Of a stretch of 64,000 nucleotides of DNA, positions 43,441 through 57,573 are shown in pieces. Every line of letters begins with the position of its first letter. The first letter of the stretch is position 1. The notes beneath the pieces are model-generated. The model made no database searches, was not told the origin of the DNA, and saw only the letters and a list, made by a program, of their open reading frames with translations. Source of the DNA: an uncultured Pseudomonadales bacterium. GTDB taxonomy: Bacteria; Pseudomonadota; Gammaproteobacteria; Pseudomonadales; UBA7434. The position numbers were made by a program, and so were the translations under genes. The stretch lies in the NCBI GenBank assembly GCA_943788835.1, contig CALSRU010000004.1, forward strand, positions 676,300 through 740,299, given 5' to 3'.

Positions 43441-43830
43441 AGAATCTGATTTTCCTGCCTATGTAGGAATATTGTTATAATGAACGCATAGATATCGGCC
43501 AATAAATTCGGCCGGAATAACCAACGCTCGCAATGATGCTTTAAGTTATTTTTGATACAAACACGTTACAAAAAGGTTGGTTTATCGGTTTTATCTACGC
43601 AGTAACAATGCAATCATTCATCAAGGTCGTAAAGCACTTTTTGAGCGCTTTCGACACCGTATCGTTGTGATGCTAGCAACAACCTTTGACGTAGTCAAAA
43701 TAGCAAAAAAAAACGAATTCACTAAGCGTCTAGGCAATCACTTCGTCGCCTTCAGCAATTTAAAAACTAACGCGTGGCTGGCACTCATCGAATTTGTACT
43801 GACCACCCATCTCTTGGATACAAGAAGCTC
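43441..43830. promoter_or_regulatory. Divergent xylF / xylB control region with leader hairpin
   Basis: 390 bases between divergent operons. Next to xylF is an inverted repeat TTCCT-8 bases-AGGAA (43452-43469) that contains the xylF ribosome-binding AGGA read leftward, so it could mask it. A TATAAT lies at 43476-43481 on the plus strand. At 43664-43683 a partly palindromic GTTGT...ACAAC sequence with GCTAGC in the middle may be an operator. No XylR gene is visible, so which regulator acts here is unknown. A plus-strand frame 43577-43843 overlaps the start of xylB and is rejected. Confidence 0.45.
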
Positions 43831-45336
43831 ATGCTCTTTTTAGGTATTGATATTGGAAGCTCCTCCGTCAAACTGTCGGTATTAGACGGCGCAACAGGCA
43901 AAGCTGTCGAATCATTACAGTACCCCGACACTGAGCTCGACATTCTCAGTCCACAAGCGGGTTGGGCAGAGCAACACCCAGCGACTTGGTGGGATTGCGT
44001 TGTTAAAGGCTGTGAAAAGCTATTTGCACACAAATCGGTAGATGCCAGCGCCATTGAAGCCATTGGTATTGCGTATCAGATGCATGGCTTAGTACTAGTT
44101 GATGCCAATCAAACCGTGCTTCGCCCGGCCATTATTTGGTGTGATAGCCGAGCCGTCAGCGAAGGTGAAACAGCCCTAAACGCCCTCGGTAGCGACTATT
44201 GCTTTGGCCACTTGCTGAACTCACCCGGCAATTTCACGGCAGCAAAACTGCGTTGGGTCCAACAAAACGAGCCTGATGTATTTGCAAAAACTCACAAAGC
44301 CATGCTACCTGGCGACTACATCGCCATGGAGCTATCCGGCGAAATCACAACGACCGCCTCAGGCCTATCAGAAGGTACTCTCTGGGACTTTCAGGAACAG
44401 CAAATAGCAAGAACTCTGCTTAATCATTGGGGTATCGATGAGCAACTCATACCAACGATTGTTCCAAGTATCGGTCAACAAGCAACGCTGAGCAATACTG
44501 CCGCGCAACGACTGGGTTTAAAGGCGGGCATCAACATCACATATCGCGGCGGCGACCAACCCAACAATGCCTTTAGCCTAAATGTTTTGGAACCTGGCGA
44601 AGTTGCGGCTACGGCAGGCACCTCCGGAGTAATTTATGGGGTTACCGATAAACTAGCTGCAGACACCCAGTCGCGAGTCAATACATTTTTACATGTCACC
44701 TCTACTAACCAAGCACCGCGCAACGGCGTGTTAGTTTGCGTGAATGGTGCGGGCCGCTCTTACAGCTGGTTGAGGCAACTCTTAGGTGCCAGTGCAGGAA
44801 CACCGGCCTCCTATGATCTTTTAAATGACTTGGCCAGTAACCAGCCTATTGGCAGCGATGGACTCATCTTTCACCCCTTTGGTAATGGCGCAGAGCGTCT
44901 GTTTCAAAATCGCACCTTAGGTGCACAACTTAAAAACATTGATTTAAACCGTCACGGTTTGGGGCATGTAGTGCGCGCGACCAAAGAAGGTATTGTCTTT
45001 GCTTTAAATCAAGGCTTTGACGTGCTCAAGTCTTTAGGTGGAAGCTGCGATGTAGTTCGTGTTGCCAAAGGTAATATGTTCTTAAGTGATGTTTTTACTG
45101 CTACTTTTGCAAACACCACGCAAGCAGCGTTAGAGTTTTACGAAACCGACGGAGCCGAAGGGGCTGCTAGAGCTGCAGCATTGGGCAGCGGTTATTACGA
45201 TTCGGCAAAAGAAGCCTTTAGCGGCTTACAGCCAAGCGGCATTGTTGAGCCCTGCGCAGCGCTCAAAGATGAATATCAAGATGCCTACCAACGCTGGGTG
45301 ACTGCACTCCCCTTTGGAGAGAACAATCTTGGCTGA
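43831..45336 (+). CDS. xylB: Xylulokinase XylB
   Basis: 501 residues from ATG 43831, where MLFLGIDIGSSSVKLSVLDG begins, the normal FGGY start; the frame is open upstream but that part has no family match. Further FGGY blocks: IGIAYQMHGLVL, IIWCDSRAV, HLLNSPGNFTAAKLRW, and GTSGVIYGV. Phosphorylates D-xylulose to xylulose 5-phosphate for the pentose phosphate pathway. Overlaps the epimerase gene by 8 bases. Xylose isomerase is not in the window. Confidence 0.92.
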   Translation: MLFLGIDIGSSSVKLSVLDGATGKAVESLQYPDTELDILSPQAGWAEQHPATWWDCVVKGCEKLFAHKSVDASAIEAIGIAYQMHGLVLVDANQTVLRPAIIWCDSRAVSEGETALNALGSDYCFGHLLNSPGNFTAAKLRWVQQNEPDVFAKTHKAMLPGDYIAMELSGEITTTASGLSEGTLWDFQEQQIARTLLNHWGIDEQLIPTIVPSIGQQATLSNTAAQRLGLKAGINITYRGGDQPNNAFSLNVLEPGEVAATAGTSGVIYGVTDKLAADTQSRVNTFLHVTSTNQAPRNGVLVCVNGAGRSYSWLRQLLGASAGTPASYDLLNDLASNQPIGSDGLIFHPFGNGAERLFQNRTLGAQLKNIDLNRHGLGHVVRATKEGIVFALNQGFDVLKSLGGSCDVVRVAKGNMFLSDVFTATFANTTQAALEFYETDGAEGAARAAALGSGYYDSAKEAFSGLQPSGIVEPCAALKDEYQDAYQRWVTALPFGENNLG

Positions 45337-46288
45337 CTACGAAGCCTTCACCCTCGCACTGGCTGATGGCTCGGCAAAATTAGAATTAGTGTTAGAATTT
45401 GGTGGGGTCGTCAACGGACTAGAACTATCTGATCAGCGAGACGATAGCCGCGTCAGTATCATTGCAGGACTAAATCATCGCGCTGAACTCAAAAATAATA
45501 GTGCATACAGAGGAGTACCGCTTTTCCCTGTGGTTAATCGCTTGGATAGCGGCCGTTATACTCACCGAGGGAAACGCTACCATCTCGCAATTAACGAACC
45601 TAAGCTGAACAATCACCTGCACGGTTTTTTACATACCCTGACACCGACTGTGGCAGAGCACCGTGTTGGGAATGAGCAAAGCAGCGTAGCCTTGCAATAC
45701 CACTACGATGGTCGATTTAATGGCTACCCCTTTCCGGCCTCAGTTTTAATAGAGTATACGCTTTCGCACGATGCACTAACGGTTAACTTTGCTGTTCACA
45801 ACCAGCATGATAAATCGATTCCGGCGGGTATTGGTTGGCACCCCTATTTCCAATTAGGGTGCCCGGTTGATCAATTACAGTTAAAGCTACCTGCGGTCGA
45901 ACGAATTGGTGTAGATGAGCGAATGCTGCCCACCGGTGAAACCTATGCCTATGATGATTTTAAACAGCTCACAGACATTGGCACGCGCCAGCTAGACACC
46001 TGTTTTCGTCTCGCCAAGCCTTGGCGTAACAAACCGGCGCGCGCAGCATTACTACTGTGGTCTAAGGCCACTCAACAGGGTATTGAGGTATGGCAGCACA
46101 GCGGCCCTCAGGCTAACAACTACGTGCAGCTGTGCATCCCACCGGACCGGCGCTCAATGGCTATTGAACCAGTCAGCTGTAACATCAACGCTTTAAATAC
46201 GGGTGATGGTTTGGTGCACATAGAACCCGGCTGCACATGGGCCACGTCTAGCGGTGTGAAGCTAACGAGCCAACCAGCGCTGTCTTAA
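45329..46288 (+). CDS. Aldose 1-epimerase (mutarotase), GalM family
   Basis: 319 residues from a TTG at 45329 that has GGAGAG six bases upstream; another in-frame TTG at 45314 lies in front of that site. Family residues: His in NNHLHGF, second His in IGWHPYF, and Glu in MAIEPVSCNINALN, the galactose mutarotase triad. Interconverts alpha and beta sugars; here probably xylose before isomerisation. Overlaps xylB, so it is in the same operon. Confidence 0.9.
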   Translation: MADYEAFTLALADGSAKLELVLEFGGVVNGLELSDQRDDSRVSIIAGLNHRAELKNNSAYRGVPLFPVVNRLDSGRYTHRGKRYHLAINEPKLNNHLHGFLHTLTPTVAEHRVGNEQSSVALQYHYDGRFNGYPFPASVLIEYTLSHDALTVNFAVHNQHDKSIPAGIGWHPYFQLGCPVDQLQLKLPAVERIGVDERMLPTGETYAYDDFKQLTDIGTRQLDTCFRLAKPWRNKPARAALLLWSKATQQGIEVWQHSGPQANNYVQLCIPPDRRSMAIEPVSCNINALNTGDGLVHIEPGCTWATSSGVKLTSQPALS

Positions 46289-46334
46289 AAAAACTGTTCG
46301 CTCAGGCTGCTGCGTCACTGGGCTTGGCAGCACA

Positions 46335-47498
46335 TCAGTCTTTTTTTTCTTGCTCTGCCACCACTTGCAGCACTGCTGAGTATGCGGGTTTGCGCTCAAA
46401 ATTGCGGCCTATTAGCAACGGATAATCCGTTCGACCTAACATCGGGCGATAATCACGCCAGCTGTTGCCATCCCATACACCCCAAAAAGTGACGCGCTCA
46501 ACATTGTCACTGTACTTGACCAACAACTTAAAAAGCTCGCTATAGCGCTTGGCCTGTAACGTTAAAACATCTTCGGGTACACCATCAACATAGGGATTGA
46601 ACTCTGCTGCCAAAGCGAAGCGGTCTTCAACACTGGCTGCGCGATGTTTCCATGCATTGGGTAATACGCTCACATCAAGCTCTGTAATGTGCAAGGGAAT
46701 TTGCGCTTGTCGGGCTTTACTCAAGACCCGCTCAATGTCACCTAACGCAGGCTGGTCGATAAACAAGTGCCCTTGATAACCTAGGCCATCTACCTGCACG
46801 CCACGGCTTTTTAAGTCAGCTATCATCGCGAGCGCGAAATCGAGTTTAGCTTCGTTATGCAAACCATAATCGTTGTACAGTAACTTTACCGATGGATCCG
46901 CCTTGTGCGCTGCTCGATACGCAATTTCAATATACTCAGGGCCTATTATTTCAAGCCAAGGTGTTGGCTTATAAAAAGCCTCAAAGCGCTTCTGTTTAGG
47001 TAGCCAGCGAGTATCAATTGCTTCATTCACCACGTCCCAGTACGCGATGCGACCTCTGTAGTGTTCTACCACCGTTCGAATGTGGGTCTCGAGACGCGCG
47101 ATCAACACATCGCGGCTGACCTGAGCACCGTGCTTATCTAAAAAAAACCAACTGGGGGTGGCATTTTTCCAAACCAGAGTGTGTCCTACCACCACTAAAT
47201 CCTGCGCTTGCGCATAGGCCATCATTGCATCAGATTCAGCAAAATTGAACGCGCCCTGCTCTGGCTGCAGCGCCGCAGGTTTCATACAGTTTTCGGCGGT
47301 AATAGTATTAAACTCAAGAGCTGTAATCGCTTTTTCTTTTTCTAGAAAATGGTTTTTCTTGTGCTGCTCAGTGGGCTGACCATGCCAAACGGTGCCCATC
47401 AAAAAGTGTTCGGCAAAGGCCCCTTTTAACGTGTCGGCTAAGCCAATGCTTTGCAACATTAAACTAGTTAAACCAACAAAAAAAACTCTATTTTTCAT
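46335..47498 (-). CDS. Secreted endo-1,4-beta-xylanase, glycoside hydrolase family 10
   Basis: 387 residues from ATG 47498 with signal peptide MKNRVFFVGLTSLMLQSIGLA; an upstream ATG (47549) would add 17 residues. The GH10 barrel is whole: acid/base Glu159 in WDVVNEA, nucleophile Glu273 in ITELDVS, TLVWKNATPSW and the Trp in VTFWGVWDGNSW. Cuts the xylan backbone. A single-domain enzyme with no carbohydrate-binding module. Convergent with xylB and the epimerase; an obvious candidate cargo of the type II secretion system upstream. Confidence 0.95.
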   Translation of the reverse strand: MKNRVFFVGLTSLMLQSIGLADTLKGAFAEHFLMGTVWHGQPTEQHKKNHFLEKEKAITALEFNTITAENCMKPAALQPEQGAFNFAESDAMMAYAQAQDLVVVGHTLVWKNATPSWFFLDKHGAQVSRDVLIARLETHIRTVVEHYRGRIAYWDVVNEAIDTRWLPKQKRFEAFYKPTPWLEIIGPEYIEIAYRAAHKADPSVKLLYNDYGLHNEAKLDFALAMIADLKSRGVQVDGLGYQGHLFIDQPALGDIERVLSKARQAQIPLHITELDVSVLPNAWKHRAASVEDRFALAAEFNPYVDGVPEDVLTLQAKRYSELFKLLVKYSDNVERVTFWGVWDGNSWRDYRPMLGRTDYPLLIGRNFERKPAYSAVLQVVAEQEKKD

Positions 47499-47820
47499 TT
47501 TGCCCACCATCAATTCGAACCGTTCAACCAGCAGGTGATGATATAACACTCGCGCTCCTAAGCCTAAAATGGCGACACTTGCGACGAACTGTTACAGATG
47601 AATGCCGTTTTATATTTAAGCCAATAGCCCAGCTCATTATTAAGAGCTCTTTATAAAAACGCACCCTGCAGCTACACAGACCGCGTTTTTGCAGACACCG
47701 GTTAATTTAAAGCCATTTAAACGGCGCTTTATCGCTTTTTGTGGTTAATTTTGGCTCTAAATTCATCGAATGGCTTACACTTAACGTATAAGTTCGAAAA
47801 ATAACGGCCGCAACAATCTT
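47499..47820. promoter_or_regulatory. Divergent region between xylanase and large surface protein
   Basis: 322 bases. An inverted repeat ACTTA-ACGTA-TAAGT (47779-47793) lies about 30 bases before the plus-strand gene; its right arm, TATAAG, may double as a -10. No good ribosome-binding site precedes ATG 47821. Nothing else identifiable. Confidence 0.35.
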
Positions 47821-50800
47821 ATGAATAAACTCTTTGCGAAAAAAATAGGTAACAAGCTAGGACTGCCCAGCTTGTTTTGTTTGCTGCTAATGTTCGGCCT
47901 GCCCAGCAGTGCTCAGGCCTACGAAGTGGAGGCCGACAGTCTCACTAATCAGATTTTCATATTGCTGACTAATGAAAACCCGGCCGCTTCTTTTGACACT
48001 ATTACCGTGAGCAACAACGCTCTAGGTATGGTCAGTTCAGCCACCGCGAGTATTGTTCCAACCTCAGTTGCTATAAACGGTAGTGACCTTGCCGCACTGG
48101 ACTTCGATATTGCCTCAGGAGCAGCGCTAGGTTCCAGCGGTGATTTAATAGTGACCGTGTCAGGCCAAGCAGGCGGACAGCCTGTTGACGTAGTTGTAGC
48201 CGTACCGTTAACCGTGGTGGCCAGTGCGCCAACGGCTCAAGGTTTTATTGGCGCCACCATTCCCGCTCCCGACCCCGGTGGCGTGGATTCTGACAGTGAT
48301 GGTGTAACAGACGCGCTCGAAATTGCCTACGGTTCTGACCCCAACGATGCCTCTTGGTTACCTGGACAAATCGTTGAAGAAAATATCCCACTACTGGGCT
48401 TCATTAGCACCCTCCTGCTAGCTGCCCTATTTTTAGGGATGGGTTCGACAGCTGCGCGGCGGCATAAAGTGAGCGTGCTGGCATTGGCAGTAGTGATGCT
48501 GTTGCCGCTCAATATGTTGGCCGGCTCTGCTACGCGCATTCAAGTGGTGGCATCGATTCCTATCCCGCCGCCACCACCGCCAGAGCCTGCGCTACTGTCG
48601 GCAACGGCCTCTTCCAGTAGTAATGAAAGTGCTACCTTGTCGCCGTCCAATGCGGTGGATGGCAGCATGGGAACGCGCTGGAGCTCACAGTTCACTAATA
48701 ATCAATGGCTGACTCTCGATTTCGGCGCGACGTATTCGCTGTCGGAAGTGATTATTCACTGGGAAGCGGCCAATGCAGCGAGTTATGAACTACAAGGCTC
48801 AAACGACAACAGCAGTTGGAATACGCTAACAAGTGAAAGCGGCGGCACTTCTGGTGCTCGCACCGATACCGTCACAGTAGCGGGCAACTATCGCTACGTG
48901 CGGATGCAAGGACTAACCCGCACAACCGTATATGGCTATTCAATTTATGAGATGGAAGTTTTGGGATTGCCTGCCGCCGATCAAGATGAGGATGGCATTG
49001 GCGACTCAAGCGACCAGTGCCCAGACACTCCGGCAGGTAGCTCAGTCGACTCTGCAGGCTGCCCTGCTCCGGATCTATTCAGCTTCACACCCGTTATTAA
49101 TGCACCTTTGAATACAGTAACGGCGTCTAATCCGATTACGGTTTCAGGTATTTTAGGTAGCACGTCGATCTCTATCGATGGCGGCCAATATTCAATAAAT
49201 GGCGGCGCTTTTTCGGGTAGTAGCGGATTCGTGGCGAACGGAAATACCGTCGTAGTGCGACAAACCTCTTCTGTTAGTTATGCGGACACCAGCCAAAGCA
49301 CGTTAACTATTGGCGGGTTGAGCGCTAGCTTTAATGTAACCACCATATCCGACCAGAATATATTTGGCTTCGTCAATCAGACTAACGCCGCGCAAAATAT
49401 GCTCGTCACATCCAACGCCGTTGAAGTGTCAGGACTCAGCGCCCCAACAGCAATCAGTGTTACGAACGGCCAATACTCTATTGATGGCGGCGCCTATACC
49501 AATGCAGCTGGCACCATTGCCAACGGCCAGATACTTTCTTTACAGCAACAAACATCTCCCTTATTGGCAACCCAACTCGACACTTTGCTATCGCTGGGTG
49601 GCTCAACCGATGCGTTTAGCGTGACTACATCAGCGACGCAAATTCCTATCGATCAATCGCGCACCGGAAATCTCGCCGGCGTCACGGTTTGGCAATTACC
49701 TAATGCGCCCAACGGCGACAGACCCGATCAATGCTGGCTCGCGGTGGGGTCCGATGTAGATGGCGAAATATACATTTCTGGCCATGATCATATTAATAAC
49801 TCTATGCTCTATCGCTTGCATCAGTCCGATAGCGTAATACGCTGGGTAGGTGATGCAGAAACGGCGTCTGAAGCGGCTAACAATTGGAATACGGGGGAAA
49901 GTGCGGAGAAATTTCATACGCGCCCGCTCTATCATGATGGCCGCGTTTATGTCGCAACACTTGACAGCTCAAATATGAATAACGATTACTTGAATACGCG
50001 TGGCTTTCATTGGTATGGATATGAGTTCTCTGACAATGAGCTAATAGATTTAAGTGCCTCAGAACCGCAAGGCGTTGGTGCACCCACCCTACAAATAGTG
50101 ACAATTCAAAAGGACGCAAAAAATAACTTACTTTATGGCATGTCTATTCCAGAAAACAAACTGGTTCGCTACGACATTGCTAACGAGCAGACAACGGTCT
50201 TAGGCAAGCCCAGTAGTTGGAACGGCTATTTTTACTCTAATCGGTTCATGTGGGTCGACTCGCGAGATCGTGTCTATATAACCGGCGGTTCCTCGCGCGG
50301 GCAATGGAATCAAGGCGAACCCGCCAGTGTCTTTGACCACGTTTGGTATTACGATCCAGCAACCGGATTTGGCGAACTGCCAAACTTTCAAATGCAGGGG
50401 CCCAACGCCATTGAAGTGGGTCAGTGGGACAGAGCGCACGAGGTACTCTACGTAGCCGATGACCAGGGCAACATCTATCGCTTTGTCGATGCAACTGCGT
50501 CTTGGAGCTTCGTAGGCCAACCTAATTTTGCAGGTGTACCTGGCACACCAAAAACTTGGGTTTTCCAATTATCGGCCGACGACGAAAAAATTTATATAGG
50601 CGTAAGTGACTCACCGTACCCCAACTCCATCTGGGAGTATGACATTGCTACCAACACGACCTCGGAGTTGGCCAAGATCAGTGATCTAGACACTCAAGCA
50701 AGCAGTCAACAATTCATCACTGGCTACGACTCTTGGGATGACCGCGGGCGCTTTTATTTTTCAAGCTTCTCAATGTACAACGGCGTTAATGTGTATATGT

Positions 50801-51144
50801 TAGGCATCGACCCCGTGCGTATCAAAGCGGCTAACGATAGCTCTTTTGAGCTCGTTGCCGTGGGTGCACAGGGCACGGCCAACGGTGTGTCTATAACACG
50901 CAGTGGCACAACAACCCAAACGCTTGAGGTGTTATATCAGGTTAAGCTATTTAACGCGCTAGGCGACAAGCTCGAAACGATTATTGGTGAGACGACTATT
51001 GTTGCAGGGCAAAATGCCCGTGCCTTGAGTACCGCTAACTTAGGTTTACCATCGGCAGGAACTTATGCCTACGCCGAGTTTTCTTTGGTGGCAGATGGTA
51101 ACGACTATATCTTGTCCGATGACTTCACAACCTTGTTACCCTGA
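47821..51144 (+). CDS. Large exported multidomain protein with internal sorting-signal-like module, F5/8-type domain and propeller-like C-terminus
   Basis: 1107 residues. In order: signal peptide (to about 33), an Ig-like N-domain (34-155), calcium-type DSDSDGVTDALE, an internal module at about 187-236 (IPLLG, helix, ARRHK, second helix), a proline linker, a discoidin/F5-8C-like domain (258-383), a thrombospondin-3-like DQDEDGIGD piece, two Ig-like repeats (417-505, 509-604) and a region from about 615 to 1010 of beta-propeller look. It has a non-repetitive C-terminus with a strand-rich cap. I do not know its function; the F5/8 and propeller parts suggest binding to sugar or a surface. XrtH 'midcut' type proteins are the nearest idea for the internal module. 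Confidence 0.85.
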   Translation: MNKLFAKKIGNKLGLPSLFCLLLMFGLPSSAQAYEVEADSLTNQIFILLTNENPAASFDTITVSNNALGMVSSATASIVPTSVAINGSDLAALDFDIASGAALGSSGDLIVTVSGQAGGQPVDVVVAVPLTVVASAPTAQGFIGATIPAPDPGGVDSDSDGVTDALEIAYGSDPNDASWLPGQIVEENIPLLGFISTLLLAALFLGMGSTAARRHKVSVLALAVVMLLPLNMLAGSATRIQVVASIPIPPPPPPEPALLSATASSSSNESATLSPSNAVDGSMGTRWSSQFTNNQWLTLDFGATYSLSEVIIHWEAANAASYELQGSNDNSSWNTLTSESGGTSGARTDTVTVAGNYRYVRMQGLTRTTVYGYSIYEMEVLGLPAADQDEDGIGDSSDQCPDTPAGSSVDSAGCPAPDLFSFTPVINAPLNTVTASNPITVSGILGSTSISIDGGQYSINGGAFSGSSGFVANGNTVVVRQTSSVSYADTSQSTLTIGGLSASFNVTTISDQNIFGFVNQTNAAQNMLVTSNAVEVSGLSAPTAISVTNGQYSIDGGAYTNAAGTIANGQILSLQQQTSPLLATQLDTLLSLGGSTDAFSVTTSATQIPIDQSRTGNLAGVTVWQLPNAPNGDRPDQCWLAVGSDVDGEIYISGHDHINNSMLYRLHQSDSVIRWVGDAETASEAANNWNTGESAEKFHTRPLYHDGRVYVATLDSSNMNNDYLNTRGFHWYGYEFSDNELIDLSASEPQGVGAPTLQIVTIQKDAKNNLLYGMSIPENKLVRYDIANEQTTVLGKPSSWNGYFYSNRFMWVDSRDRVYITGGSSRGQWNQGEPASVFDHVWYYDPATGFGELPNFQMQGPNAIEVGQWDRAHEVLYVADDQGNIYRFVDATASWSFVGQPNFAGVPGTPKTWVFQLSADDEKIYIGVSDSPYPNSIWEYDIATNTTSELAKISDLDTQASSQQFITGYDSWDDRGRFYFSSFSMYNGVNVYMLGIDPVRIKAANDSSFELVAVGAQGTANGVSITRSGTTTQTLEVLYQVKLFNALGDKLETIIGETTIVAGQNARALSTANLGLPSAGTYAYAEFSLVADGNDYILSDDFTTLLP
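48379..48528 (+). other. Internal IPTL-CTERM-like sorting module (protein 47821-51144)
   Basis: Encodes residues 187-236: Asn-Ile-Pro-Leu-Leu-Gly, a 15-residue hydrophobic stretch, the basic ARRHK, and a second hydrophobic helix. IPTL-CTERM signals recognised by exosortase H have an IPTL-like start, a helix and a basic end but stand at the C-terminus; here about 870 residues follow. Confidence 0.6.
49069..49632 (+). repeat. Two tandem Ig-like repeats in the large surface protein
   Basis: Residues 417-505 and 509-604 align: each has F-x-F/V-x-N-x-x-N/L-Q..., then SNxIxVSGL/I, a conserved QYSIxGGAF/Y core, a GxxxxxNGxxxxxxQ strand and an SFNVTT/AFSVTT end. They resemble extracellular repeats that space binding domains away from the cell surface. 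Confidence 0.75.
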
Positions 51145-52215: not shown

Positions 52216-53691
52216 TCAAAGATCACAACTACCTTCCCTAACGGCACGGGCAAATACAGCGACCTCTCTACGGTTAGACGGCGGCTGAGGCGCACCCGAT
52301 TCTTTAGAAATCGCTTGAATACCTGCCGGCAGCTCTTCTAGAATCTGCGGGGTTTGAATATTTGACGGGATCCTTGCGTTCGCCCCAAAATTAACCCCGT
52401 AAGCATTCGACACTTCTGGCAAAAATGTTTGCGATGACCAGTAAGGCAAAACGCCCATACGGTACTGACTTGTCACTTGGTCAGTGAGTCCATTCACTAC
52501 AACTGGGTAAGATGGGCTCGCGTAACCCGCATGAGCAAGAAAATCAGGGTCGAGACACGGTGGGCTGTAACAAACCGTTGACTGCTGGGTAAGATTCTGG
52601 CCACTGGCTGGATCCTCTGTAAGCTGTGCTAGAACGCCCTCACCCACCAAAATAGTTTGCATTTCGCTTACTATCGGTAGACGCCAATCACCGTGCCCGC
52701 CAAAACCATTACTATTAAGCTGATTCAGGAATACGGTATAAACCGTTCCGTCAGGCTCAATCGAGGTGATGTCTGCGGACCAAGAGTAAGAGTTATTGAC
52801 GTTATGCACGCCATCCAGCTCGGTCTTTCTTTCCCACACTAAACCTGTAGCTTTATCCTCAACTGAGACGCCATCAGCACAAGCAACAAAACGAACATCC
52901 TCAGGCGCAGAGCATACCGATGGCAGCCCACTGCACACAAACGAAGGCTCGATAGCGCATGATGAACTACATCCGTCCCCGTCAATTCTATTGCCATCAT
53001 CGCAGGCCTCAAGCGCATCAAGAATCACACCATCGCTGCACAGAAAAGCCTGTATAGCGGCAAGTGTCGATTGAAGCACGCTTGTGTCCGAAGTGTTAGA
53101 CGCTATATTGGTCGCGTTTGTTGCAATCCCCTCAGCATTAACAGCAATACTTTCCGCATTATCTTGTACGTCTGCCGCTAGGGCATAGCCGTTGTTATCC
53201 ACAAAGTCGTCAACCTGAGTTTCGGTCAATTGCGTGTTCGTATCAATGGTGTGTCCATTGGCGGCGGCATCAGCCGTCTGTTGAGCAGTAAGCGTGCGGT
53301 TATAATTATCGTCAACGGCTACTTTGACTTCATTGAAGTTCGCATTAACTTCGTCAGCATCGGCAATAGCACCGTTCACAAAATGATTAAGAGAACCCAC
53401 AGGACCGGCTGTTACCATTGTTGGCAGTGCTAACAGGAAGGAAATGATAGCTGCACCTACCATTACGACCGGAACACTCCTCATAAGCTTCCAACGCTTG
53501 GCTATCGTCATACCAACCCCGAGCAACAGAAAAAATGCGAACGTTTGGGCTATGCCCCCCATCATCGGAACATCAACCAAATTTTGCCCCCAAACCATAG
53601 AGCCCCAATTACCCGTACCCCATTGAGCGAAGCACTGTGAACTCACCAATAAGAAAAAGCACGCGACGAGTTGCCGCAGGTAGTTATTCAT
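52216..53691 (-). CDS. Exported protein with internal sorting-like module, Cys-rich repeat and DUF1566 domain
   Basis: 491 residues. Signal peptide (to about 22), short Trp/Gly-rich stub WGTGNWGSMVWG, internal module at 40-95 (VPMMGG, helix, AKRWK, second helix), NHFVNGAIADADEVNANFNEV, an Ala/Asn-rich region likely coiled-coil (130-215), a myxococcal-type Cys repeat (EACDDGNRIDGDGCSSSC, about 228-262), and a DUF1566 domain (ATGLVWERKT, GHGDWRLPIVSEMQTI, YWSSQTF, RAVREG). DUF1566 domains occur in surface and fibre-like proteins. GGAGAC ribosome site before ATG 53691. I cannot give a specific function. Confidence 0.82.
   Translation of the reverse strand: MNNYLRQLVACFFLLVSSQCFAQWGTGNWGSMVWGQNLVDVPMMGGIAQTFAFFLLLGVGMTIAKRWKLMRSVPVVMVGAAIISFLLALPTMVTAGPVGSLNHFVNGAIADADEVNANFNEVKVAVDDNYNRTLTAQQTADAAANGHTIDTNTQLTETQVDDFVDNNGYALAADVQDNAESIAVNAEGIATNATNIASNTSDTSVLQSTLAAIQAFLCSDGVILDALEACDDGNRIDGDGCSSSCAIEPSFVCSGLPSVCSAPEDVRFVACADGVSVEDKATGLVWERKTELDGVHNVNNSYSWSADITSIEPDGTVYTVFLNQLNSNGFGGHGDWRLPIVSEMQTILVGEGVLAQLTEDPASGQNLTQQSTVCYSPPCLDPDFLAHAGYASPSYPVVVNGLTDQVTSQYRMGVLPYWSSQTFLPEVSNAYGVNFGANARIPSNIQTPQILEELPAGIQAISKESGAPQPPSNRREVAVFARAVREGSCDL
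53407..53574 (-). other. Internal IPTL-CTERM-like sorting module (protein 52216-53691)
   Basis: Encodes residues 40-95: Asp-Val-Pro-Met-Met-Gly-Gly, a helix ending LLLGVG, the basic AKRWK, then a second helix. It has the same order as residues 187-236 of the protein at 47821-51144, although the rest of the two proteins is unrelated. Here it follows the signal peptide by only about 20 residues. Confidence 0.6.
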
Positions 53692-55172: not shown

Positions 55173-57573
55173 ATGAAAAGTATTTCTACCCGTATTGCCG
55201 ATGAACTGAATATTCGAGAGGGTCAAGTTGATGCTGCCATCGGGTTGCTCGACGAAGGCTCTACCGTGCCGTTTATTTCTCGCTATCGTAAAGAAGTCAC
55301 CGGAGGCCTCGATGACACTCAAATGCGCACGTTAGAAGAGCGCCTGCGTTATTTACGTGAGTTAGAGGCTCGCCGTGTGGCCATTCTTAAAAGTATTGAG
55401 GACCAAGGCAAGCTAAACCCTAAGCTGGCCGCCGACATCCACTCGGCCGACACTAAAAATCGACTAGAAGACCTCTACCTACCTTACAAGATTAAACGCC
55501 GCACCAAGGGCCAAATCGCTCGCGAGGCGGGTCTTGAACCATTGGCTAATGCCTTGTTCGACAACCCTGAACTCTCACCAGAGCTCGAGGCCGTAAAATA
55601 TATTGTTGGCGGCGAATGCAATCCTGTAAACCCGGCTGAGGCTGCTGAGTCGGACGATGAAACTAAAAAAATCGTCGATGTCAAAACGGCATTAGACGGC
55701 GCAAAATTTATTCTGATAGAGCGCTTTAGCGAGAATGCTGAGCTAGTAGGTAGCTTGCGCGAGCTACTTAAATCCAATGGTTCAGCCACTGCGCGGGTCT
55801 TTGAAGACAAGAAATTAGAAGCTGCTAAATTTCAAGATTACTTTGCCTATAGTGAGCCATTGCACAAAGTGCCATCGCACCGCGCTCTGGCCATTTTTCG
55901 CGGTCGTAACGAAGGGTTTTTGTCGCTATCTATTAGCGTTGGCGATGCCTCAGACCCAACCGCAACACATCCTTGCGAGAGCATGATTGCCCACTTTTGG
56001 CGTGTAACCAACCAAAACCGCCCCGCCGACAAATGGCTGGACGAAGTGGTGCGCTGGACTTGGCGCGTGAAGCTATCGATGAAGCTTGAAATGGATCTTC
56101 TTGGCGAACTGCGCGAGCGCGCCGAAAAAGAGGCCATCAACGTATTCGCCAGCAATATGAAGGATTTATTATTAGCCGCACCGGCTGGGCAAAAAGCCAC
56201 TATTGGCCTCGACCCCGGCTTGCGCACTGGCTGTAAAGTTGCCGTGGTTGACGCCACCGGCAAAGTGGTTGATCACTGCGCTATCTACCCAACACCACCA
56301 CGCAACCAAGCAGCGCGAGGCTGAATTGATACTGATCAAGCTATGCAAACAACACAACGTGGGGCTGATTGCCATTGGCAATGGCACCGCTTCGCGTGAA
56401 ACGGATAATTTTGTTGGCAACGTATTAAAAGCTAACAAAGACATCCACGCTCAAAAAGTGATGGTGAATGAAGCCGGCGCCTCTGTGTATTCAGCCTCTG
56501 AATTTGCTGCAAAAGAATTTCCAGATTTAGACGTGACGATTCGTGGCGCCATTTCAATTGCTCGGCGGCTGCAGGATCCGCTTGCTGAGCTAGTTAAAAT
56601 TGACCCCAAATCAATTGGTGTAGGCCAGTACCAACATGACGTGTCACAAACCCAACTTGCCCGCTCACTCAATACCGTAGTTGAAGACTGTGTCAATGCC
56701 GTGGGGGTTGAGGTCAATACTGCTTCCGCGCCGCTACTCGCCGCTGTCTCGGGATTAAACCCAACCATTGCCAATAATATTGTTGAGTTTCGCGATCAGA
56801 ACGGGGCGTTCGCCAGTCGCGAAGCGCTTAAAAGCGTGCCACGCCTCGGCGCCAAAACGTTTGAGCAAGCCGCCGGATTTTTAAGAGTGGCGAATGGCGA
56901 AACGCCACTAGACAGCTCGGCAGTACACCCCGAATCCTATTCAATTGTTGAACAAATCGCCAAAAAGAACAATCGCCCTATACAAAAATTGTTAGGGGAC
57001 TCGCTATTTCTAAAATCGCTTTTGCCTACTGACTATACCAACGACCAGTTTGGTCTACCCACAGTCACCGATATTATTAGCGAGCTGGACAAGCCAGGCC
57101 GTGATCCACGCCCCGACTTCAAAACAGCTCAATTTAAAGAAGGCATCGAAAAGATCTCTGACCTAGAGCCTGGCCTTATTCTTGAGGGTACCGTAACCAA
57201 TGTAACGAACTTCGGGGCTTTTGTTGATATCGGTGTACACCAAGATGGGCTAGTGCATATATCAGCCCTATCAAACACATTCGTAAAAGACCCTCGCAAA
57301 GTGGTAAAAGCAGGCGACATAGTAAAAGTTAAGGTTATGCAAGTTGACGCAGCACGCAAACGTATTGCCATGTCTATGCGACTTGACGATGATATTGATG
57401 GCGCTGAGGAAGACGGGGCCACACGCACCGATAAGCATCGCGATTCACAGCGCAGCAAGCAAAAAAATCACAAGCTTGCGGCTACACAGAACTCTACCAA
57501 ACATGACAAACCACCGGAAGGCACAATGGCAGCCTTGTTTGCAAAGGCCAATGAAAAAAATAAGAATAAATAG
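55173..57573 (+). pseudogene. tex: Tex transcription accessory protein, broken by an apparent +1 frameshift
   Basis: Two frames together cover a full Tex (about 799 residues; E. coli YhgF 773). Frame one, ATG 55173 to stop 56324, holds the N-terminal helical part and the YqgF-like domain start ([16 protein letters not shown]). Frame two carries on with [14 protein letters not shown], the helix-hairpin-helix region and the S1 domain ([28 protein letters not shown]). Removing one A at 56291-56292 restores the family's IYPH. Tex binds nucleic acid through S1 and affects transcription. Either a sequencing or assembly error in a CCCAACACC tract, or a recent mutation; the flanking sequence shows no further decay, which favours error or recency. 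Confidence 0.9.

Follow-up and report, generated by a model that had tools for sequence, protein, structure and literature searches.

An internal exosortase-type sorting signal joined to a second signal peptide in a predicted two-part exported protein of an uncultured Pseudomonadales bacterium

The 64,000-nucleotide stretch of DNA analysed here (the window) carries an open reading frame (ORF) at 47821-51144 on the forward strand whose 1107-residue product, judged from its sequence, probably represents a pair of exported proteins made as a single chain and cleaved at a sorting signal that is joined to a signal peptide. At the centre of this reading is a short module with the sequence features of an exosortase-type C-terminal sorting signal, which continues in frame into the signal peptide belonging to another exported protein. 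Division of the chain at this seam is probable, because relatives encode both proteins as separate neighbouring genes; the division into two parts implied by the original prediction is thus backed by split homologues, from which we infer the cleavage itself.

The ORF is uninterrupted over its whole length. Its translation begins with a signal peptide (residues 1-33, 47821..47919, +; ...SSAQA/YEVE), the cleavage site of which was assigned by eye and places the mature start at about Y34. The N-terminal part (N-part) then comprises a family-conserved domain predicted to form a seven-strand beta sandwich (residues 34-143, 47920..48249, +) and, ahead of the sorting signal, a TSP3-like repeat (residues 156-177, 48286..48351, +) for which PF18884 scores 21.6 bits on the whole protein, under the cut-off of 25, and 25.1 bits on the sub-sequence alone. 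The module occupies nucleotides 48379-48528, or residues 187-236, and reads ENIPLLGFISTLLLAALFLGMGSTAARRHKVSVLALAVVMLLPLNMLAGS, with ENIPLLG, a hydrophobic stretch, ARRHK, a second hydrophobic stretch and LAGS in that order. This is the arrangement that had been described beforehand, with the correction that the isoleucine of IPLLG is residue 189 and not 187. The IPLLG signature (residues 189-193, 48385..48399, +) leads into the first hydrophobic helix (residues 194-211, 48400..48453, +) and the basic cluster RRHK (residues 213-216, 48457..48468, +), which would both close the N-part signal and provide the n-region of the second signal peptide. The second hydrophobic stretch (residues 217-234, 48469..48522, +) ends in a signal-peptide-like c-region, PLNMLA, and from residue 235 (48523..48585, +) the presumed new N-terminus of the C-terminal part (C-part), a conserved GSATRIQVVASIP, is followed by a Pro-rich linker. 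Beyond this lie an F5/8 type C (discoidin) domain (residues 261-376, 48601..48948, +; PF00754, 77.1 bits), a second TSP3-like stretch (residues 386-404, 48976..49032, +; PF02412, 15.8 bits, below the cut-off of 25) and a variable passenger (49066..51141, +) made up, by eye, of two similar stretches and then a region in which every match to a Kelch model is below cut-off. Approximately 870 residues follow the module, in agreement with the passenger length first proposed. The ORFs next to this gene at 43774-47549, which we take to resemble a xylulokinase, an aldose epimerase and a divergent GH10 xylanase, look like a sugar-use neighbourhood adjoining it. At 55173-57573 (+), what is presumably a Tex-like protein is laid out as two overlapping ORFs in different frames, indicating a frameshift in either the gene or the assembly.

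The module is not a chance arrangement, since it also occurs in one 91%-identical and three 66-68%-identical orthologs from other genomes, since the proline of its [IV]P start is invariant in all 16 aligned rows while the helix varies, and since it is the only stretch shared with a second protein of the window. Furthermore, [IV]P is retained in each of the 22 signals read. The existence of a sorting-signal module inside an exported protein of 1107 residues, as originally suggested, is upheld by these observations. The second protein (491 aa) is encoded at 52216-53691 on the reverse strand, about 1 kb from the first ORF, and starts with a signal-peptide-like sequence and a short WGTGNWGSMVWGQ stretch ahead of a mid-protein module of its own (53407..53571, -), in which VPMMGG, a helix and AKRWK precede a signal-peptide-like stretch ending VTA/GP. 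When the two proteins were compared directly, the sole significant alignment was the module (residues 188-227 against 40-78; 28.1 bits, with an E value of 0.001 that refers to that single comparison). Fused homologues of the 491-residue protein are found at L095 (genome G007), L096 (G008) and L097 (G002). In G008 a related C-part also stands alone behind a plain signal peptide (L098), with no sorting signal in the 660 bases upstream, and at a further locus (L099) the C-part lies behind a different N-part ending VPAMGG...RLRKKL, the two genes being split with an ATGA overlap.

Several other sequences carry comparable features. A cut at VPMM in the 491-residue protein would leave an N-part peptide, rich in WG, with a length of about 20 residues (QWGTGNWGSMVWGQNLVD); L096 and L097 retain this WG stretch, as does, in part, L008, an ORF of the window's own genome with a mid-protein module and a collagen-like passenger. 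The same genome holds a 1225-residue open frame with a mid-protein module (ENIPSLPYLALFVLFISLAFLGAKHKR...) at L101 2646-6320 (+), corresponding to C4:18645-22319. A similar ORF occurs in G006 (L103), and L102 of G003 has a mid-protein module too.

The three forms taken by the family across the genus carry most of the weight of our reading. The loci read comprise 14 fused ORFs (the window; L015, L016, L017, L018, L035, L036, L038, L039, L041, L048, L050 twice and L052), eight split loci (L034, L037, L040, L042, L043, L044, L045 and L047) and two with the C-part alone (L049 and L051); in L039 and L041 a contig end is reached behind the seam, the upstream gene of L045 is truncated by a contig end, and the N-part of L046, truncated in the same way, was left out of the counts. 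None of the 14 fused ORFs has a stop codon between the parts. At every split locus the break falls behind the basic residues that follow helix 1 and ahead of helix 2, such that the upstream gene ends in [IV]P, helix 1 and basic residues (8/8) and the downstream gene opens with what is, by eye, a signal-peptide-like start (8/8). Stop and start codons overlap in six of the eight, as TAATG (L034, L037, L040, L044) or ATGA (L042, L043), and lie a few bases apart in L045 and L047. The two lone C-parts carry their own signal peptide, with no N-part within 1.3 kb upstream. Five genomes (G000, G002, G007, G009 and G010) hold both fused and split loci.

Phylogenetic trees indicate that the family has likely changed state between fused, split and stand-alone more than once, with only the stand-alone cases forcing this conclusion. 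A tree of the N-part (21 rows) implies two changes between fused and split, one of them forced by strongly supported branches. In a tree of the C-part start (23 rows, one very long row having been removed) the split copies form two groups, again with two changes and one forced, while the fused rows require four changes, two of them forced, with or without the long-branch row L050 4278, which has no F5/8C domain. The stand-alone copies occupy two separate places among fused copies, one within a strongly supported clade and the other grouped with fused copies in a clade of lower support, and here two changes are forced.

The original prediction had treated the second hydrophobic stretch as a plain helix. 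A hydrophobic stretch is indeed present, but residues 217-234 are the counterpart of the N-terminal signal peptide of the split and stand-alone C-parts. Helix 2 has the features of a Sec signal peptide (a basic n-region, a hydrophobic core, a small residue at -1 and counterparts that are N-terminal), the assignment being made by sequence features and homology. In the fused copies it ends in PLNMLA/G, PVDLDA/G, PMDLSA/G, PQELSA/G and similar sequences, and a polar c-region with alanine (serine in two cases) preceding the glycine was present in all 13 fused copies examined; L039, outside those 13, reads LPLNMLA/G. After helix 2 the motif GxATRIQLVAxIP recurs with small variations in fused copies, stand-alone copies and the split loci L042, L043 and L045. 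A looser version (e.g., TNIQLVGSI or VRLQVVESV) occurs in the split copies of GH16 type (L034, L040, L044 and L047), to which L037, nearly identical to L034, adds a fifth locus. The fused copy at L050 4278-6779 keeps GSSTRIHLIAEIP without any F5/8C match, and the motif is therefore conserved apart from that domain. Two details count against the model: the -3 residue of the window copy is methionine, which is less than ideal for signal peptidase, and the basic cluster of L036 and L052 is weak (GKGR).

Based on these comparisons we propose the following route. The first signal peptide would take the N-part, some 155 residues with an Ig-like domain and TSP3 repeat, over the inner membrane, and IPLLG, helix 1 and RRHK would act as its tripartite sorting signal, the basic cluster remaining cytoplasmic. 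Helix 2 would then restart export as a signal peptide for the second protein, which consists of the F5/8C domain and passenger. A small exosortase, either XrtM or another small type, would cut at IPLLG and link the N-part to a surface moiety, and signal peptidase I would cut after A234, freeing the C-part. The outcome would be the products of the relatives' two coupled genes at a fixed 1:1 ratio.

A simpler scheme, which we regard as unlikely, is that the two helices form a plain membrane hairpin, with neither helix cut or with signal peptidase alone acting after helix 2, no exosortase being involved; the N-part would then stay on the inner membrane by way of helix 1 and the basic loop. Two hydrophobic helices around a basic loop suit such a hairpin, release of the C-part needs only signal peptidase, and, as set out below, the assignment of an enzyme failed. 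Similarly, the AlphaFold model A1 (mean pLDDT 69.3) shows the seven-strand sandwich followed by two consecutive short helices at 194-207 and 213-226, the latter of low confidence. However, [IV]P, helix 1 and basic residues form a real C-terminus in all eight split loci, as in CTERM signals, the proline is held constant despite variation in the helix, and an alignment of 16 small exosortase-like proteins of the genus shows Cys, Arg and His kept in 13 of them. In a Foldseek comparison of the N-domain with the PDB, the best match was the fimbrial chaperone FaeE (E 2.5e-4; TM-score 0.29, computed with the hairpin still in the model), with a value of 0.35 for AP2 appendage; we read the predicted domain as Ig-like and nothing more.

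Returning to the proposal that an exosortase cuts helix 1, candidate enzymes are at hand. As anticipated, the window's genome contains exosortases: an XrtM (TIGR04300, 136.3 bits against a cut-off of 125), three further small exosortase-like genes and two large exosortases, one XrtD-like (376.8 bits, cut-off 400) and one XrtA/XrtW-like and below both cut-offs. XrtM and the gene at C3:46359 keep all of Cys, Arg and His, and the other two small homologues lack Cys and His. The enzyme named in the original prediction, exosortase H, can be set aside, as TIGR04177 stays under its cut-off of 86 bits in all 12 genus genomes (best score in the window's genome 62.8) while G050 and G086 of the same order pass it. 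XrtM exceeds its cut-off in eight of the 12 genus genomes and in G099 of another family (9/390 in all); it is below cut-off or not found in G004 (97% complete), G005 (a partial match of 101.1 bits), G006 (73% complete) and G011. Two further types of small exosortase with Cys, Arg and His kept were distinguished, type N in G002, G004, G005, G008, G010 and G011 and type P in G000, G007 and G009, with neither found in G003 or G006. They could not be merged into one class, as the small-exosortase tree does not group them. Large exosortases (PF09721, E<=1e-4) were not found in G001, G004, G006 or G009, and it is unlikely that they are the sole enzyme, given that G004 and G009 hold fused copies and G006 a split pair. 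The sequence evidence makes the small exosortases the likelier enzymes for cutting the modules, because G004 and G009 carry fused copies with no large exosortase match, and several small exosortases may share the task. Against the model, no small exosortase type tracks the distribution of the module across the genus. In the loci read, no family member lies directly beside an exosortase gene, the closest case being in G002, where about 7 kb separate the split pair from a type N gene.

A different sorting protease acting on helix 1, either a rhombosortase-like rhomboid or a myxosortase-like CPBP protease, would explain why no exosortase type fits the distribution, and such enzymes also read tripartite signals according to PMC11980579. 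We nevertheless think this improbable, as the signature is [IV]P, as in IPTL-CTERM, and is not GlyGly or Cys-based, and as exosortase matches occur in 11 of the 12 genus genomes (G006 shows none).

It has also to be considered that the C-part is initiated additionally or exclusively at a codon within the seam, in which case two products would arise with no cleavage. Split genes do begin at the seam, and eight of the 13 fused genes examined have an in-frame ATG within the scanned stretch, two of the 13 having neither ATG nor GTG in frame there. The predicted ribosome-binding energy reaches -7.4 kcal/mol or better in five of the eight split genes (the others giving -2.2, -3.7 and -4.5), whereas the 12 fused genes other than the window copy do no better than -3.4, with ATG and GTG as the codons scanned. 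Moreover, the absence of a stop between the parts of the fused ORFs argues against this arrangement. For the family, internal initiation is unlikely; for the window copy the test is not clean, as its in-frame GTG scores -5.0 and thereby beats the three weaker split genes. Overall we give this explanation little credence. That the fused reading is an artefact of assembly or gene calling is scarcely credible: although the genus is represented by draft genomes with between 17 and about 480 contigs each, the same fusion recurs in the orthologs at L014 to L018, from five genomes, and 14 ORFs show it altogether, one of them on an 879-kb contig.

The surroundings of the exosortase genes offered some observations of their own. 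In the window's genome (contig C2), L011 10741-14220 (-) lies about 2.4 kb from XrtM and encodes a protein of 1159 residues that finishes with IDVPMMPAFALVCSMAVIFFSYVLSGRRR plus a short tail; this protein has VPMM, a helix and GRRR in order at its C-terminus and is likely to be a C-terminal XrtM substrate. Immediately after XrtM, a membrane-type protein of about 200 residues is encoded in G000, G002, G007 and G009 (L003 1878-2489 (+); L065 5038-5625 (+)); the G000 and G002 copies, when scanned, gave no NCBIfam match over cut-off. Finally, small exosortase-like genes at L054 7072-7656 (-) and L055 7763-8314 (+) in the window's genome lack the conserved Cys and His, and that at L064 7866-8432 (-) in G009 has the Cys and lacks the His. 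All three lie near an ORF that we assume to resemble a TonB-type receptor and near a protein ending VPVPAFAAA...GRRR, and may be exosortase relatives that lack catalysis and have a dedicated partner.

The family is concentrated in one genus. When the whole protein was searched against 95 genomes, the window's own plus 94 relatives, 12 had matches. Eight of the 12 belong to the genus, namely the window's own and seven out of its 11 mates; in the other four, G028, G044, G064 and G066, the matches are limited to the F5/8C domain or to parts of the passenger. Some genomes have several copies of the first 418 residues. The passengers, from nine sequences searched with Pfam, include a di-haem oxidoreductase (PF06537), GH3 (PF00933, PF01915) and GH16 (PF00722). 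A profile of the N-part, at E<=1e-6, was matched by 10 of the 390 relatives searched, every one a member of the genus, the match in G003 and G008 being confined to short pieces of the TSP3 part. Against 369 genomes of the class the profile found none beyond the window's own at E<=1e-8 (1/369). A scan of public contigs with one peptide pattern returned at least four loci, of which L068 (CALCNB010000401.1, labelled an uncultured Cellvibrionales MAG) matches nearly the full N-part and three are short. Plasmid records gave 47 partial matches, none covering 80% of the 1107-residue protein.

On a broader and more speculative level, the family might constitute a bacterial polyprotein system for two-chain surface enzymes, in which exosortase and signal peptidase both cut, the N-part serves as an anchor and the C-part docks on it through GxATRIQLVAxIP, so that enzymes bearing this tag (GH16, GH3, di-haem peroxidase and others) are displayed from fused, split or lone genes. 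We put this forward as a doubtful extension. An AlphaFold model of residues 34-382 (A3, mean pLDDT 67.1) places strands at 239-246, for the ATRIQ motif, and at 139-143, for the invariant AQG stretch of the N-part, with pLDDT of about 58-61, and gives only a hint that the tag of the C-part docks on the N-part.

The value of the family lies in its providing a natural experiment within a single genus, with the two proteins fused, encoded as coupled pairs, or reduced to the second half alone, and with the same pattern repeated in the second, module-sharing protein. This opens the role of an internal exosortase-type signal to direct testing and places the seam within a few residues; it also points to the two halves acting jointly, in equal amounts. 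If the cut is made by an exosortase, XrtM and other small exosortases would have substrates beyond those with C-terminal tags, and annotation models based on XrtH would miss proteins of this kind. The printed mid-protein sorting signals that we found, HVO_0405 and MXAN_5598, are described as single cases.

One of the closest known systems is midcut_by_XrtH, to which the original prediction had tentatively assigned the protein. A model of that name does exist (NF033207, cut-off 45 bits), the other accession cited for it, TIGR04174, being IPTL-CTERM. NF033207 matches two proteins of the XrtH genome G086 (L081, 87.5 bits; L089, 54.2 bits), which served as a positive control, but passes its cut-off in none of the 12 genus genomes and gives no match to the window protein at E<=10. 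Weak matches of 13.2-15.5 bits fall on the modules of four fused members (G007:C5, G009:C56, G002:C1 and G004:C97), with scores of up to 21.1 elsewhere in the genus and, at E<=0.1, no match on the window copy. Both architectures have a signal peptide, a short N-part, an IPTL-like motif with helix 1, basic residues, a second hydrophobic stretch and an exported C-part; they differ in that the model spans 175 positions, whereas the second part of the window protein alone has about 870 residues and its genome has no XrtH over cut-off. We conclude that the window protein follows the same working plan and is not a member, because NF033207 yields only weak matches and none over cut-off in the genus. 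In the general sense, the midcut type of architecture is present, as a sorting signal lies inside an exported protein and is followed by a second exported part, export being judged by eye. A search of the open-access literature by title returned nothing on midcut-by-XrtH and nothing on exosortase H, and for XrtM the matches listed were unrelated.

The IPTL-CTERM signal (TIGR04174, PF18203) resembles the module in its order of elements and its [IV]P start; in contrast, the score at the module is 14.0 bits, below the cut-off of 20.5, and the signal is internal. XrtM (TIGR04300) is present in the genome, and its reading of an internal signal is our proposal. When set beside exosortase substrates in general, for which we take the tripartite definition of signature motif, helix and basic cluster from PMC11980579, the module has all three elements and its genome encodes an exosortase with Cys, Arg and His; the signal is internal in the 14 fused ORFs and C-terminal in the eight split loci.

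There are two further precedents. HVO_0405 of Haloferax volcanii is reported in PMC7157517 to be a two-gene fusion that is cut centrally in an ArtA-dependent manner. Like the window protein it joins two once independent genes around a central site; unlike it, the protein is archaeal, bears a PGF signature and is called strain-specific in that source, whereas the family described here is bacterial, has an [IV]P signature, recurs in a genus, has split versions and carries a second signal peptide at the seam. In Myxococcus, MXAN_5598 has an internal MYXO-CTERM and may be a fusion of two genes; its authors liken it to TraA/TraB, the two-gene counterpart with overlapping ORFs, and state that such tags work inside proteins (PMC11980579). 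MYXO-CTERM differs in having an invariant Cys and a CPBP-type protease, and the C-part in that case is a barrel of the outer membrane bearing OmpA domains, as opposed to the carbohydrate-binding type domain with enzymes seen here. An internal sorting signal is thus not new in principle. The present family extends it to a bacterial setting with exosortases and shows it recurring within one genus, where split counterparts pin down the seam and a further signal peptide is placed at that seam.
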